Below the pieces are notes generated by a model. The model had not been told where the DNA came from and ran no database searches. It saw only the letters and a program-made list of their open reading frames with translations. A stretch of DNA of 64,000 nt, from assembly GCA_017399965.1 (NCBI GenBank), contig JAFQAP010000002.1, forward strand, positions 1 through 64,000, written 5' to 3'. The stretch comes from Clostridia bacterium (GTDB taxonomy: Bacteria; Bacillota; Clostridia; Oscillospirales; CAG-382). Below, piece by piece: positions 34,794 to 42,052 of the stretch. Made by a program: the position numbers and the translations under genes. Positions within the stretch are counted from its first letter, which is position 1. Each line of letters opens with the position of its first letter.

Positions 34794-35546
34794 TTACTTT
34801 ACAAATTTCTCTATTTCTTCTGCGGTAAGGAGTATTTGCTCCTTAGCCGTTACAGTAGGCGTTCCGTCGCCTTTTTGCTTTCCGTACACACCGAAATATG
34901 CGTGGCATCCGCCGTCTATCACTGTTTCAGTAAAATTTTGAGGCAGATTGGTTATGTTGGCGTTGTATTTTTCCCTGTTCATAACCTTATCCTCGCTTCC
35001 GTATACGGAAAGCACCTTAAGCTCGGTTGAAGATAGGTCGGCGGTGGAATACGAGCCCAGCAGAATCAGCCCGTTAAATTCATTTGCGTGGCTTTCAAGA
35101 TAAGACGCCGCCATTGATCCGCCCAGGGAATGACCGCCGATATACCAATTTTCGATATTCGGGTATTGCCGGCGAATGCCGTCTGCGGCGTTTATATCCA
35201 GAACCGCCAGATTAAAAGGCATTTCCACAAGAAAACAAATAATGTTTTTTTCCGCGCACGCACGCATCAGCGGTATGTATGCGGTGTATTCCACCTTGCC
35301 GCCGGGATAAAATATCAATGCCGCTTCAGGGTTTTCGGGCTCAAAAACTATTGTGCCGTCGGTAAGCGCGGTCTGGCGTATTGATGCGGATACGGTAAAA
35401 GCGTTTATCGCATCGGCATCCGCACGGTAATAATCATTTACATATATTCCGCAGGCGGCAATTATCAGCACAAAGACCGCTGTCAGCGATGTCAGCCATA
35501 TGAATATTCGCTTTTTTCGTTTGTTTTTAAAAAATTCGGTTTTCAT
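34794..35546 (-). CDS. Membrane-anchored alpha/beta hydrolase
   Basis: A 250-residue protein with one N-terminal helix (about 13-34), then an alpha/beta hydrolase domain. The nucleophile elbow is GGHSLGGSM (Ser near 146), an Asp likely lies in YGSEDKVM, and the His in DGGCHAYFGVYG. Dienelactone-hydrolase-like or esterase activity outside the membrane is likely; the substrate is unknown. Its ATG overlaps the stop of the metal-type regulator gene (ATGA), so expression is coupled. Confidence 0.82.
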   Translation of the reverse strand: MKTEFFKNKRKKRIFIWLTSLTAVFVLIIAACGIYVNDYYRADADAINAFTVSASIRQTALTDGTIVFEPENPEAALIFYPGGKVEYTAYIPLMRACAEKNIICFLVEMPFNLAVLDINAADGIRRQYPNIENWYIGGHSLGGSMAASYLESHANEFNGLILLGSYSTADLSSTELKVLSVYGSEDKVMNREKYNANITNLPQNFTETVIDGGCHAYFGVYGKQKGDGTPTVTAKEQILLTAEEIEKFVK

Positions 35547-36262
35547 TGTTGTTTTTCCCCTTTGCTTTTCTTTCTGTAATCTGTGGGCAGTACCCCGTAT
35601 TCCTGCTTAAACGCCGCGCTAAAACGGCTTTGGCTGTCGTACCCTACCTCTTTTGCCGCGGCAAAAATACTTGTTTGGGTATCCTTTAAAAGCCTTGCCG
35701 CCTTTTCTAAGCGGTGCTTTTTTATATGTGCGGCAACGGAATCACCGTACACCTCCTTGAATATCTTTTTAAGTGTTGTGGTGTTTATATGAAACGTTTT
35801 TGAAAGCTCCTCAATGGTTATCCGCTCCGAAAGGTGCTCTGTAAGATATTCGTGTACCGCATATATTATCTCTCTGTGAGAAATACCGTTTTCTTCGGTT
35901 TCGGGGCAGGAAACCTCCATTACCTGCTCAAGAATTTCGTGCAGCAGCTTGCTTTCCGCCGTGTCTGCGGCGCGGTAATACACTTCTTTTCCTTCCCGCC
36001 TGCTTTCTATAAGGTTTAGCTCTCTTAAAGGGCGCAAATGGTGGGAAACGGCAGGGCTTGTCATATTAAGGAGTGCGGCAATGTTTATTACACATTCTTC
36101 TCTGTGGCAAAGAAGCCAGAACACCCGCAGACGGGTAGTATCCCCCAATTGCCTGAACAGCTCGGATGCGCTTTGAAAACGGGTAAGAACGCTTAGCTCC
36201 TTGTATATTTTAACTGCATTTTTACTGTCCCCGTGGTTGTGGGGAAGCTTGAATTCTTTCAT
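35543..36262 (-). CDS. ArsR-AraC fusion transcriptional regulator
   Basis: A 239-residue regulator that joins two DNA-binding modules. An ArsR/SmtB winged helix lies at about 20-105 (FRQLGDTTRLRVFWLLCHREECVINIAALLNMTSPAVSHHLRPL). An AraC-type double HTH lies at about 135-235 (ITIEELSKTFHINTTTLKKIFKEVYG, then AAKEVGYDSQSRFSAAFKQEYG). The cysteine in REECVINI recalls metal-sensing ArsR proteins. It is divergent from a metal ATPase operon with a perfect palindrome between them. I start at 36262, where GAGG precedes the ATG. Confidence 0.88.
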   Translation of the reverse strand: MKEFKLPHNHGDSKNAVKIYKELSVLTRFQSASELFRQLGDTTRLRVFWLLCHREECVINIAALLNMTSPAVSHHLRPLRELNLIESRREGKEVYYRAADTAESKLLHEILEQVMEVSCPETEENGISHREIIYAVHEYLTEHLSERITIEELSKTFHINTTTLKKIFKEVYGDSVAAHIKKHRLEKAARLLKDTQTSIFAAAKEVGYDSQSRFSAAFKQEYGVLPTDYRKKSKGEKQQ

Positions 36263-36318
36263 ATTTATCCTCTTTGGAAACGGTGTTCGCCCTTTCGGAA
36301 GCAAATTGCGAAAGAGTG

Positions 36319-36631: not shown

Positions 36632-38512
36632 ATGAACAAAAAACAAAAAAAGCTGCTTTTTCGCATACTCATATCTTTTGCCTTAACGGCGCTTCTTTTG
36701 GTCGTGCCCATAAGCGGAGTATACCGTTTTATATGCTATTTTGCCGTGTATCTTGTTATCGGCTTTGATATTCTCCGCAAAGCGGCAAAGGGTATATTAA
36801 ACGGCAGAGTGTTTGATGAAAACTTTTTAATGTCCATAGCAACACTGGGCGCTTTCGCTTTGGCAATATACACCAAAAGCGGGGATTATCTTGAAGGCGT
36901 GGCGGTTATGCTTTTTTACTGCACGGGTGAGCTTTTTCAAAGCTTTGCCGTGGGCAAAAGCCGTAAAAGCATAGCGGCGCTTATGGACATCCGCCCCGAC
37001 CGCGCAAATTTAAAAACCGAAAACGGCGTCGTTACAGTCAGCCCCCAAGAGATAAGGGCAGGGGATATTATACTTGTTGACCCCGGTGAAAAGGTACCCT
37101 TGGACGGTGTGGTATTAAAAGGCGCGTCCTCTCTCAACACAAGCGCGCTTACGGGCGAAAGCATCCCGCGGGACGTAAGCGAGGGGGATGAAGTCATAAG
37201 CGGCTGTGTTAATATGACGGGAGCCTTGGAGGTGCGTGTTACCAAGACCTACGAGGACTCTACTGTCAATAAAATTCTGGAGCTGGTGTCCTCCGCTTCC
37301 TCTAAAAAATCCCGATTTGAAGCCTTTATATCCCGTTTCGCAAGGGTATATACTCCTATCGTGTGCGGCTGTGCGGCGGTGCTGGCGCTTGTTCCGCCTT
37401 CGGTAAATATGTTATTAAGCTTGCCTGCGGGCTTTGATATATGGCTGTACCGCGCACTTACCTTTTTGGTGGTAAGCTGCCCCTGTGCTTTGGTGATAAG
37501 CGTTCCTTTAAGCTTTTTCGCAGGGTTGGGCTGCGCAAGCAAAAACGGAATACTCATAAAAGGCTCAAACTATCTGGAAGCTCTTTCGAAAACCGAATAT
37601 ATGGTGTTTGATAAAACCGGTACTCTTACCAAAGGCGAGTTTTCGGTTACGGATATAGTATCCTTCGGTATTTCGCAAGAGGAGCTTTTGCGCTTTGCGG
37701 CATATTGCGAATGTGCATCCTCCCACCCTATCGCCCAAAGCCTTAAAAAAGCATACGGAAAGAGCATTAACAGAGATGCTGTGCGCAATATCAAAGAGCT
37801 TGCGGGCAGAGGCGTTACCGCAGAAGCAGACGGAAAAGTTATTGCCGTGGGCAATGCAGACCTTATGGAAGAAGCGGGGGCAGCAATTCCGAGCAGTCTT
37901 CCGAAAGGAAACTCTGTTCACGTAGCTCTTGACGGGGTATACGCAGGATATCTGCTTATTTCCGATACGGTCAAAGAAAATTCCGCCAACGCTTTAGGCT
38001 TGTTAAAAAAGGCGGGTATCAAAAAAACGGTAATGCTTACGGGAGATAACGCCTTCGAAGCAAAAAGAATTTCCGATACCGTGGGCACAGACGAATTCAA
38101 AAGCGGTCTGTACCCTCATCAAAAGGTAGAGGCTGTGGAAGAATATCTTTTGCAAAAGCCGAAAAGATCCGTTCTCGCTTTCGTAGGGGACGGGATAAAC
38201 GATGCGCCCGTGCTTTCCCGCGCAGACGTAGGTATCGCCATGGGCGGAATGGGGTCGGATGCCGCTATCGAAGCCGCAGATGTAGTGCTTATGGATGATG
38301 ATCCTATGCAGCTTGTTTCCGCTTTGAAGATATCCCGTAAATGTGTAGGTATCGTCTATGGGAATATCGCATTTTCCCTTTTGGTAAAATTCTCATGCCT
38401 TGCTTTAACCGCCTTCGGCGTGTCCGATATGTGGTTTGCCATATTTGCGGACGTGGGTGTAATGATACTCGCCGTGCTAAATGCCATGCGTGCGTTTTAT
38501 ATTAAAAAATAA
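36632..38512 (+). CDS. P1B-type heavy-metal translocating ATPase (Zn/Cd/Pb type)
   Basis: A 626-residue P-type pump: TGES actuator motif near 175, CPC in the membrane (VVSCPCALVISVP near 286), phosphorylation motif DKTGTLTKG near 328, HP motif in SSHPIAQSL, and hinge GDGINDAPVLSRADVGIAMG. CPC with no N-terminal metal domain suggests a ZntA/CadA-like exporter of Zn, Cd or Pb. It is controlled, by context, by the divergent ArsR-AraC protein. Confidence 0.92.
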   Translation: MNKKQKKLLFRILISFALTALLLVVPISGVYRFICYFAVYLVIGFDILRKAAKGILNGRVFDENFLMSIATLGAFALAIYTKSGDYLEGVAVMLFYCTGELFQSFAVGKSRKSIAALMDIRPDRANLKTENGVVTVSPQEIRAGDIILVDPGEKVPLDGVVLKGASSLNTSALTGESIPRDVSEGDEVISGCVNMTGALEVRVTKTYEDSTVNKILELVSSASSKKSRFEAFISRFARVYTPIVCGCAAVLALVPPSVNMLLSLPAGFDIWLYRALTFLVVSCPCALVISVPLSFFAGLGCASKNGILIKGSNYLEALSKTEYMVFDKTGTLTKGEFSVTDIVSFGISQEELLRFAAYCECASSHPIAQSLKKAYGKSINRDAVRNIKELAGRGVTAEADGKVIAVGNADLMEEAGAAIPSSLPKGNSVHVALDGVYAGYLLISDTVKENSANALGLLKKAGIKKTVMLTGDNAFEAKRISDTVGTDEFKSGLYPHQKVEAVEEYLLQKPKRSVLAFVGDGINDAPVLSRADVGIAMGGMGSDAAIEAADVVLMDDDPMQLVSALKISRKCVGIVYGNIAFSLLVKFSCLALTAFGVSDMWFAIFADVGVMILAVLNAMRAFYIKK

Positions 38513-39421: not shown

Positions 39422-39605
39422 TTTAATCTTCCTCCATATGCGGCAATTATATACCTTTTTCGTCCGCAAGTCAAGTGATTATGACAAACCCGCTCTTTTC
39501 TGCTGTCGATAATTCATATATGTTGCGATAAAAAGCGGTTGTTTTTTTTGGTATTTCTTTTAAAAAAATGTTCTTAAACGGGTAGAAAACTTCATATTTA
39601 TATGT

Positions 39606-39611
39606 TATAAT
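39606..39611 (+). promoter_or_regulatory. -10 element before the DUF1538 gene
   Basis: TATAAT with a weak TAGAAA 17 bases upstream (39583-39588). The rest of 39470-39605 has no feature. Confidence 0.5.
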
Positions 39612-39658: not shown

Positions 39659-41176
39659 ATGAAGAAATTATTATTCAGTAAAATAAAAGAAGCGTTGATT
39701 TCGGTGCTTCCGGTAACGCTCATAGTGGTAATGCTCAATTTCACTCCCCTCATAAACGTGGGCGGAGGAGAGATGCTCATTTTCGGCGTGTCCGCTTTGT
39801 TTTTGATTCTGGGTATAGGCTTTTTTACCTTGGGCGCAGACATTGCCATGACACCTATGGGTGAGCATGTGGGTTCGGGACTTACCAAATCCAAAAATTT
39901 AAAGCTTTTGCTTGCCGTTTGCTTTGCTTTGGGCGTGCTTATTACCGTAGCGGAACCGGACCTTACAGTGCTTGCGGATCAGGTGGGAAGCAAATACATA
40001 ATACTTTTCGTGGGGCTGGGCGTAGGTCTGTTTTTAGTGTTGTCCATACTCAAAATCGTGCTGAAAAAAGATCTGGCGGGCATACTCATATATTTTTATA
40101 TGGTGCTGTTTGCCGCAGCTTTGGTACTTGTGGCAACCGATCCCGAAAAATTCACGCTTTTGCCCTTGTCCTTTGATTCCGGCGGCGTGACCACAGGTCC
40201 CATAACCGTTCCCTTTATAATGGCTCTGGGCGTAGGTATTGCCGCAACCATCGGCGGCAGAAACTCCAGCGAAAACAGCTTCGGTTTGGTGGCAATGTGC
40301 TCTGTCGGTCCTATTCTTGCGGTGCTGCTTTTAAGCATTGTAAACGGCGGCGATATTTCCGCACCCGGCGTAGAGGACTATATGTTTGCGGAAGATATAT
40401 GGGAAGCTGTATTGCATACCCTTTTTAAAACCACAAAAGACGTAACCCTGGCTTTGGGATTGGTAGTGGCGTTCTTCTTTATCATAAACTTTATCTTCTT
40501 GAAGCTGCCAAAGAAAAAGCTTTTCCAGATATCAGTAGGTGCCGCAATCACTTACGTGGGACTGATAATCTTTCTCACCTCGGTTCACGTGGGATTTATG
40601 CCCGTAGGCTTTAAAATGGGTAAGGAGCTTGCAAAATCATCTCCCGCAGTTATTGCCGCGGTGGGATTTGTGCTGGGTCTGGTGGTAGTTCTGGCAGAGC
40701 CTGCGGTGCACGTGCTCAACAAGCAGGTAGAAGAGATCACCAACGGCACAGTTTCCAAAACCGCAATGATGTTCGCTTTAAGCATCGGCGTGGGACTTTC
40801 CATATGTCTTTCGGTCATCCGAATTATTTTCGGATTTTCCGTATTGTATTATCTTGTGCCCGGTTATCTCATTTCCTTGGGATTATCCTTCTTCGTGCCC
40901 AAGATATATACCGCCATCGCCTTTGACTCGGGCGGAGTTGCCTCAGGTCCCTTAACGTCCACGTTCATTCTGCCCTTTGCCATCGGCGCTTGCTCGGCTA
41001 TGGGAGGGAACATCTTGTCCGATGCTTTCGGTATCGTCGCCATGGTTGCAATGACACCTTTAATAACCATTCAGCTTTTGGGCTTTACCGCGATTTCCAA
41101 AAAGCGTGTAAGCGAAAAACTGGCGATGAAGCGTATTCTGGACGAAGACGACGACCAGATCATCCGCTTTTTATAG
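39659..41176 (+). CDS. DUF1538 family membrane protein
   Basis: A 505-residue membrane protein made of two homologous halves, each with the DUF1538 signature: FDSGGVTTGPITVPFIMALG near 175 and FDSGGVASGPLTSTFILPF near 425, plus about twelve hydrophobic helices. The inverted-repeat look suggests a transporter. Two PII-like genes follow within nine bases and then with overlap, so its flux is probably under PII-type allosteric control, as AmtB is by GlnK. The substrate is unknown. Confidence 0.88.
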   Translation: MKKLLFSKIKEALISVLPVTLIVVMLNFTPLINVGGGEMLIFGVSALFLILGIGFFTLGADIAMTPMGEHVGSGLTKSKNLKLLLAVCFALGVLITVAEPDLTVLADQVGSKYIILFVGLGVGLFLVLSILKIVLKKDLAGILIYFYMVLFAAALVLVATDPEKFTLLPLSFDSGGVTTGPITVPFIMALGVGIAATIGGRNSSENSFGLVAMCSVGPILAVLLLSIVNGGDISAPGVEDYMFAEDIWEAVLHTLFKTTKDVTLALGLVVAFFFIINFIFLKLPKKKLFQISVGAAITYVGLIIFLTSVHVGFMPVGFKMGKELAKSSPAVIAAVGFVLGLVVVLAEPAVHVLNKQVEEITNGTVSKTAMMFALSIGVGLSICLSVIRIIFGFSVLYYLVPGYLISLGLSFFVPKIYTAIAFDSGGVASGPLTSTFILPFAIGACSAMGGNILSDAFGIVAMVAMTPLITIQLLGFTAISKKRVSEKLAMKRILDEDDDQIIRFL

Positions 41177-41185
41177 GAGGTAGGT

Positions 41186-41617
41186 ATGCCCGTAAGAGTA
41201 ATAAAAAGAATAGCAGGGGAAAAAGAATATAAACCTGCGCCCGCAAAGAATCAGGTGTCCAGCGTCCGCAAACTAAAGATTTTGGTTACTGTAGTGGATA
41301 GAAGCAAGACCTTGTTTTACGTGGATCTTTTGGAGCAGTTCGAAGTAAATGTCCAGATGGTAATATACGGAAAAGGCACCGCAAACACACAGATGCTGGC
41401 GCTTTTGGAGCTTATCGAATCGGATAAATCCGTTATTATTTCTTATATAAGAGAGGATAGGGTAAAAGACGCGCTTGACACTCTGGAGGAAAAATTCCAT
41501 AAGGTCAAAAACGGCAAAGGTATCGCATATACCGTTTCCTTGGATAGTATTATAGGAGTATCGATGTACCAGCTTTTGAGTAACGATCGAACTATAAAAG
41601 AAGGAGAAAAGAAATAA
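41186..41617 (+). CDS. Divergent PII-like signalling protein
   Basis: A 143-residue protein with a basic 25-residue N-terminal extension, then a PII-like alpha/beta fold (KLKILVTVVDRSKTLFYVDLLEQF, later VKNGKGIAYTVSLDSIIGVSMY). The GXA-type nucleotide segments of classical GlnB are only partly visible, so it may bind a different ligand. It is placed between the DUF1538 gene and a more typical PII gene. Confidence 0.72.
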   Translation: MPVRVIKRIAGEKEYKPAPAKNQVSSVRKLKILVTVVDRSKTLFYVDLLEQFEVNVQMVIYGKGTANTQMLALLELIESDKSVIISYIREDRVKDALDTLEEKFHKVKNGKGIAYTVSLDSIIGVSMYQLLSNDRTIKEGEKK

Positions 41618-41934
41618 TGAGCAGTGGATATAAATGTATACTGGCAATAGTAAATAACGGCTTTTCGGAAGAAGCAATGGAGGCGGCAAAAGCCTGCGGC
41701 GCAAGGGGAGGCACCGTTTTACACGGCAGAGGAACCATTTCCAAGGAAGCGGAAAAGTTTTTCAATATCTCCATCCAGCCGGAAAAAGAAATAGTTATGA
41801 TCCTCGCAAACGCTTTGCAAACCGATAATATATTAAAGGGTCTGTATAACGCCATCGGCACCTCCACCCAAGCACAGGGCATAGTCTTCGCCCTCCCGGT
41901 AGACGAAACCGCCGGCCTGGAGCCAAAAGAATAA
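41617..41934 (+). CDS. PII family signal protein
   Basis: A 105-residue PII-fold protein: YKCILAIVNNGFSEEAMEAAKACGARGGTVLHGRG, then GIVFALPVDETAGL. The GARGGTVLHGRGT and C-terminal valine-aspartate strand match the ATP/ADP site of PII proteins. The T-loop tyrosine of GlnB is absent, so uridylylation is unlikely. It overlaps the preceding gene's stop by one base and ends the operon. Confidence 0.85.
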   Translation: MSSGYKCILAIVNNGFSEEAMEAAKACGARGGTVLHGRGTISKEAEKFFNISIQPEKEIVMILANALQTDNILKGLYNAIGTSTQAQGIVFALPVDETAGLEPKE

Positions 41935-41940
41935 TAATGA

Positions 41941-41969
41941 AAAAACAGAAGCCGTATGCTTCTGTTTTT
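41941..41969 (+). terminator. Terminator of the DUF1538/PII operon
   Basis: AAAAACAGAAGC, loop CGTAT, GCTTCTGTTTTT. Confidence 0.9.
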
Positions 41970-41970
41970 G

Positions 41971-42052
41971 TTGTCGGGGTCCCCGAGAAGCCGCAAGGCT
42001 TCTTGGGGTGATTGTCGGGGTCCCCGAGAAGCCGCAAGGCTTCTTGGGGTGA
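41971..42052. repeat. Tandem copies 1 and 2 of a 41-bp palindromic repeat
   Basis: Two identical 41-base units (41971-42011 and 42012-42052) beginning TTGTCGGGGTCCCCGAGAAG and ending GGCTTCTTGGGGTGA. Each can form a hairpin (GAAGCC/GGCTTC inside CCCC/GGGG). A third, slightly diverged copy lies at 11441-11480. They sit between convergent operons. Confidence 0.9.

Follow-up and report, generated by a model that had tools for sequence, protein, structure and literature searches.

The window that we analysed is a 64,000-nucleotide stretch of DNA, and its contig is contig 7 of a 2.09-Mb draft genome. Three genes on the plus strand span positions 39659-41934: the first (39659..41176, +) encodes a DUF1538 membrane protein of 505 aa with two fused UmpA/UmpB-like repeats, the second (41186..41617, +) a divergent PII-type protein of 143 aa that we call P1, and the third (41617..41934, +) a PII-type protein of 105 aa, P2. 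The stop codon of P1 and the start codon of P2 overlap (TAATG). The initial annotation had described a DUF1538 gene followed by two consecutive PII-type genes, the first of them divergent, and these are the open reading frames that we found. All three genes are under purifying selection (dN/dS of 0.045-0.101 against two same-genus genomes, and 0.05-0.07 for P1), so none of them is a chance ORF. The operon stands alone: the gene upstream of it is TMEM164-like and divergent, and the one downstream, for a type II/IV secretion ATPase, is convergent. It is preceded by a promoter-like site, TAGAAA-17-TATAAT (39583..39611, +), and separated from the convergent gene by a terminator-like hairpin (41941..41969), neither kind of site being found above chance (4 found against 4.7 expected and 3 against 3.4, respectively). 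Just after the operon, a 41-nt unit with a hairpin is present in two perfect tandem copies (41971-42052). Elsewhere in the window (35543-36304 and 36632-38512), the gene of a single regulator that has an ArsR-type as well as an AraC-type domain is oriented divergently to a gene for heavy-metal binding and one for a P-type ATPase.

The membrane protein matches PF07556 with 406.6 bits (cut-off 22.6) over two stretches and hence belongs to the DUF1538 family. The stretches correspond to an UmpA-like half (39716..40342, +; E 1.4e-54) and an UmpB-like half (40463..41086, +; E 6.9e-70). The substrate of such a protein had been called unknown in the initial annotation, which is too strong a statement, since UmpA and UmpB, a DUF1538 pair from Halomonas zhaodongensis, form a hetero-dimer for which Na+(Li+,K+)/H+ antiport was measured (PMC5484666). 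The same paper gives a pH optimum of 9 for this antiport and states that UmpAB is active in E. coli, in an assay hosted by strain KNabc, from the two DUF1538 genes alone. The window protein and UmpAB share the Pfam family and the presence of two homologous 7-TM halves, although these are separate subunits in UmpAB and are fused in a single 505-aa ORF in the window. Furthermore, the window protein scores far below the equivalog cut-offs for UmpA and UmpB (NF041627 and NF041628; 152.9 of 490 and 127.9 of 500 bits), which leaves room for an ion other than those of UmpAB. It is probably a monovalent-cation/H+ antiporter. A structural model built from 75 relatives reached a pLDDT of 91.6 and a pTM of 0.90 and contains two similar helical halves. 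Among these 75 relatives, the mean number of K+R residues in the N-terminus and the first seven loops was 3.0, 0.4, 2.9, 0.4, 2.5, 0.7, 1.6 and 0.9, followed by 3.8 in the next loop and 5.0 in the C-terminus, the loops of repeat 2 showing a weaker contrast. These per-loop charges fit a predicted 7+7 TM protein with both the N-terminus and the C-terminus inside, whose halves of seven segments each would have opposite topology. No PDB structure matched the model in Foldseek at E <= 0.001 (the best hit had an E of 0.02 and a probability of 0.20), and in VIA-align the model reached a Z of at most 6.6 over 111 residues; we neither claim nor exclude any fold family for it.

P2 narrowly misses the cut-off of the P-II family PF00543 (24.4 bits, where 25 are required) and matches our A6 profile with an E of 2.1e-41. 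Relatives also fall on both sides of the PF00543 cut-off, several of them above it (27-46 bits). P1 has no match in Pfam; it matches at the profile level and phmmer aligned it to the N-terminal half of the fused PII-PII protein that adjoins DUF1538 in relatives, P2 being the equivalent of the C-terminal half. A fused homologue from the same genus (L128) has a predicted PII fold in both halves (pLDDT 84), and PII, PII-like and CutA structures, SbtB and PstA included, dominate the matches of these halves with middling Z scores of 7-8. By way of the model of this homologue, a PII-superfamily fold is predicted for P1 and P2 as well. L128 is a second copy of the genome of L027, and it was included in the residue counts below and excluded from the copy tally and the tree. 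In the sample from the order, the gene after DUF1538 is in 30/30 loci a single gene of ~230 aa whose first half resembles P1 and whose second half resembles P2, with a gap to the DUF1538 gene of -107 to +28 nt when the earliest possible starts are taken. Within the genus of the window, the fused form of the PII pair occurs in one genome and the split form in two. In a tree of 184 DUF1538 rows, which left out ten loci that were duplicate, truncated or of odd copy number, the state of the PII pair changes between fused and split at least six times with the pair kept throughout, and DUF1538 itself changes between fused and separate at least once.

The initial annotation held that a lack of conserved linkage in related genomes would speak against its proposal. 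Linkage is in fact conserved: 156 of 157 loci chosen by their DUF1538 gene have a PII gene downstream on the same strand and the single exception is a contig end. These loci comprise the 30/30 of the order sample, 80/80 from genome contigs (mostly with two PII genes, and two of them ending at a contig end after the first), 7/7 from plasmids of Alphaproteobacteria and Clostridia, and 39/40 from the phylum, where the contig end is found. Loci L126-L159 stand outside this count as they were chosen from genomes where both models had matched, and the genomes within each sample are related, so the linkage counts are not independent. Presence and absence of the two families also go together. Among 398 genomes of the phylum, DUF1538 was found in 139 and 138 matched the PII profile at E < 1e-20, with 137 genomes having both, one PII only (G559), two DUF1538 only and 258 neither; this limit for a strong PII match was fixed after a gap in the E-values had been seen and dropped 52 weaker matches, none of them in a DUF1538 genome. 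The exceptions include G252, which has DUF1538 without a strong PII match. In the 197 genomes of the order, DUF1538 was present in 85, PII in 86 and both in 83. Here the DUF1538-only genomes are G158, with a divergent protein and no PII, and G171, in which the locus is at a contig end, and the PII-only genomes are G058 and two with weak matches that belong to another PII-like family. In a second phylum, that of a Bacteroidales record, 9/247 genomes exceeded the DUF1538 cut-off, all nine with a downstream PII gene, and exactly those nine have a PII match below E 1e-19 (one of them at 6e-20). Finally, two DUF1538 queries and one PII query of 72,556 plasmid records returned the same nine. Linkage and co-occurrence agree across three phyla, and the association is far stronger than the initial annotation could know.

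The number of PII domains follows the architecture of the transporter. PII domains are present in 190 of the 194 loci with DUF1538 among 196 loci analysed (the window included and one duplicate excluded), a tally that includes loci chosen because both models matched. Of the four without PII domains, two stop at a contig end, one has a divergent DUF1538 protein and the last is a relic. Fused DUF1538 genes are accompanied by two PII domains in 160 loci, either as one gene (75) or as two (85), and by a single one only in L050 and L106, both at a contig end. Separate DUF1538 genes have one PII domain in 8 loci and two in 14 loci. Tandem modules each with their own PII were found in L179, L196 and L189, and in the first two of these there is one PII per DUF1538 pair. 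Several unusual loci were also seen. In the second phylum, a 626-aa DUF1538 protein is followed by a 380-aa protein with three tandem PII domains, possibly a covalent PII trimer (L245:1624-4643, genome G680). In another locus (L132:4254-5685, G010), a fused PII pair comes after a DUF1538 protein of only 256 aa, in which the beginning of repeat 1 seems to run directly into the last part of repeat 2. The relic is a 100-aa ORF (L123:7264-7566, G186) of which the first ~76 residues derive from DUF1538 and the last ~30 from the C-terminal half of PII, which suggests that a single deletion removed both together or that the assembly is wrong here. We found no natural DUF1538-PII fusion, so covalent evidence of contact between the two proteins is absent from these loci. 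Two long frames were checked as candidates and rejected: the extension in L099 (1596 aa) holds no recognisable protein and, on visual inspection, was taken for a frame left open by chance, and in L131 (746 aa) the PII frame differs from that of DUF1538.

In order to look at the ligand pocket, PII columns were mapped by profile alignment to solved PII proteins and 331 domains were counted, using residue numbers and roles that we take to be those of E. coli PII. The K90 position is K or R in none of the 331 domains; the R101 position is never R, being K in 2, G in 277 and a gap in 41, and the R103 column consists mostly of gaps. On the other hand, the K58 position is basic in 319/331. The T29 position is T or S in 185/190 domains of the C-half or single class (the 49 'single'-class domains include loci whose N-half was missed by the A6 model), and is T in 45/141 N-halves. 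The retained T29 and basic K58 positions suggest that the C-half still has some of the pocket but not the canonical contacts to phosphate, and the N-half appears to have drifted. The new signal foreseen by the initial annotation is plausible, because the basic residues that contact the ATP phosphates in canonical PII are absent. The genome of the window has no PF00543 match other than P2 and no ammonium transporter (PF00909 had no match there, and matched in 14/14 controls), which argues that P1 and P2 are not borrowed from AmtB control. Standard nitrogen control was therefore rejected for this genome, in which neither AmtB nor another PII was detected. Regarding other ligands, the genome encodes a protein with a diadenylate cyclase (DAC) domain, which is compatible with c-di-AMP binding without being evidence of it. 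c-di-AMP was rejected as a general ligand because the module is also present in Alphaproteobacteria, where, to our knowledge, this nucleotide is not expected.

A further conserved element lies at the end of the DUF1538 protein, where an acidic C-terminal tail (DEDDDQIIRFL; 41141..41173, +) is found. A D-x(1,2)-I-[IVLF] motif in the last 22 residues is present in 121/167 fused DUF1538 proteins, versus 2/29 of the other genes that encode a C-terminal half, of which one is a single-repeat chimera and the other is truncated by a contig end. Proteins with the motif tend to occur with divergent PII N-halves (114/138 versus 7/26, in counts that ignore shared descent), which is only a hint of a link between the two. 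This tail is a candidate docking peptide and no more.

The module has similarities to several known systems. As in GlnK-AmtB, a small PII-fold gene is linked to the gene of a membrane transporter, but the transporter belongs to another Pfam family, the canonical phosphate residues are lost and AmtB is absent from the genome. SbtB-SbtA also pairs a non-canonical PII-like protein with a Na+-linked transporter, and SbtB is among the fold matches of L128; however, the transporter family is again different and P2 ends in AGLEPKE with no cysteine near the C-terminus, and therefore has no SbtB-like R-loop, which we take to be a C-terminal redox loop with a cysteine pair. As the transporter is of another family and the canonical ATP-phosphate residues are lost, we assign the module to neither of these two systems. 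PstA/DarA resembles P1 and P2 in having a PII fold without the canonical ATP site, with similar Z scores among the fold matches of L128, but no PF06153 match is listed for P1 or P2, and we know of no dedicated transporter neighbour of PstA.

PII proteins are a classic means to plug or lock transporters, and PII-type control of DUF1538 is the best explanation of our data. We consider it rather probable that the module consists of an UmpAB-type (DUF1538) monovalent-cation/H+ antiporter and a dedicated cytosolic PII-type regulator. In it, repeats 1 and 2 of DUF1538, with seven segments apiece, would correspond to UmpA and UmpB in fused form and would make up one cation/H+ exchange unit. P1 and P2 would assemble as a PII-type complex, probably pseudo-trimeric or mixed, that would dock on the cytosolic face of the transporter, perhaps via the conserved C-terminal tail, and the binding of a small ligand by P2 would switch exchange on or off. 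It is unlikely that ATP/2-oxoglutarate, bound in the canonical manner, is this ligand. The initial annotation had proposed control like that of AmtB by GlnK, and linkage together with co-occurrence in three phyla gives strong support to the dedicated pairing behind this idea; the transport role that it wished to derive from such control agrees with the antiport published for a DUF1538 pair (PMC5484666), and the PII argument is not needed for it. That this pairing is found again and again in three bacterial phyla makes it probable that the PII-type sensors control the exchanger. Against this, UmpAB was active in E. coli from its two DUF1538 genes (PMC5484666), G158 and G252 have DUF1538 without PII or without strong PII, and G058 and G559 have PII without DUF1538. 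Moreover, the transporters controlled by PII proteins so far seem to be ones able to function as trimers, according to a review (PMC10710835), and this may count against our proposal, UmpAB being reported as a hetero-dimer.

Other explanations have to be considered. P1 and P2 could be parts that the transporter cannot do without, for its structure or its assembly, instead of ligand-responsive regulators, as the near-perfect co-occurrence would allow and as the loss of much of the pocket in the N-half (T in only 45/141 at the T29 position) might be expected of a structural partner. This is unlikely, as Halomonas UmpAB works in E. coli from its two DUF1538 genes alone (PMC5484666), and the T29 position of the C-half and the K58 position over all domains suggest a kept pocket. 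DUF1538 and the PII pair could also be a transport system for ammonium or another nitrogen source that replaces AmtB-GlnK in a genome without AmtB and canonical PII, an idea to which the similarity of NH4+ to K+, a reported UmpAB substrate, lends something; but the published activity exchanges Na+, Li+ or K+ for H+ with its optimum at pH 9 (PMC5484666), and a machine-learning study lists DUF1538 among pH-adaptation features (PMC13255231). With the loss of the K90 and R101 positions of ATP-binding PII also against it, we regard this alternative as quite improbable.

Many soluble targets of PII proteins are known, and P1 and P2 might act on enzymes or transcription, or be enzymes themselves, and be placed beside DUF1538 for co-expression only. 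That PII-type folds are able to be enzymes is reported for SbtB and SAM-AMP lyases. This is very improbable, as joint presence and absence and the repeat-wise pairing point to DUF1538 as the target, and when the neighbours of 80 loci were clustered no further conserved member of the module appeared: the largest cluster, ABC-transporter-like, covers 10/80 loci, and the next ones consist of opposite-strand ORFs at the positions of the PII genes. As for the possibility that the linkage simply reflects common ancestry within a few clades, the relatedness of the genomes within each sample does make the counts interdependent, but linkage in three phyla, on chromosomes and plasmids and through gene-fusion changes, already contradicts it, and the association holds for presence and absence alike; we give it hardly any credence.

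In a search that covered mainly the open literature, we found no paper in which a PII protein is described as the partner of DUF1538 or of any cation/H+ antiporter. A term search of the UmpAB paper (PMC5484666) gave no mention of PII, and two papers on cable bacteria mention UmpAB in passages without PII. Passages of the 2023 review give Amt, nitrate, urea and bicarbonate transporters as the PII targets, antiporters not being among them (PMC10710835). If PII-type control of DUF1538 is true, PII would gain a new class of target in a family of cation/H+ antiporters. It would also account for many genes whose sole annotation is 'P-II family nitrogen regulator', those of this AmtB-less genome among them; in public annotation such genes stand beside those of a 'DUF1538 domain-containing protein'. 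As UmpAB can be assayed in E. coli KNabc, a strain without NhaA, NhaB and ChaA, the effect of a cognate PII protein on exchange would be directly measurable.

Through weak matches we also found a second PII-like family (~112 aa), present in 26/197 genomes, whose gene lies directly before a CPA2-type Na_H_Exchanger gene in 20/25 loci (examples are L200:1501-3075, L125:6227-7801 and L201-L224) and has different neighbours in the remaining five. These pairs resemble the DUF1538 module in that a PII-like gene adjoins the gene of a monovalent-cation/H+ antiporter, but the PII-like subfamily is another one, the PII gene comes first and the transporter belongs to the Na_H_Exchanger family. In a single case, a PII of the DUF1538 kind precedes a CitMHS/ArsB/MamN-like transporter gene in a genome without DUF1538 (L246:5658-7592, G559). 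These parallels with CPA2 and CitMHS/ArsB/MamN-like transporters lend credibility to an association of PII-type proteins with ion antiport. Taking these together, it is possible, and we put it forward tentatively, that PII-type proteins came on more than one occasion to control monovalent-cation/H+ antiport as a general layer of regulation (in three phyla with DUF1538, separately with CPA2 antiporters, and perhaps with an ArsB/CitMHS-type transporter), and that the DUF1538-linked pair consists of unequal sensing and docking halves matched to two inverted repeats, with a ligand other than ATP/2-oxoglutarate that would tie the energy, osmotic or second-messenger state of the cell to Na+/K+ and pH homeostasis.
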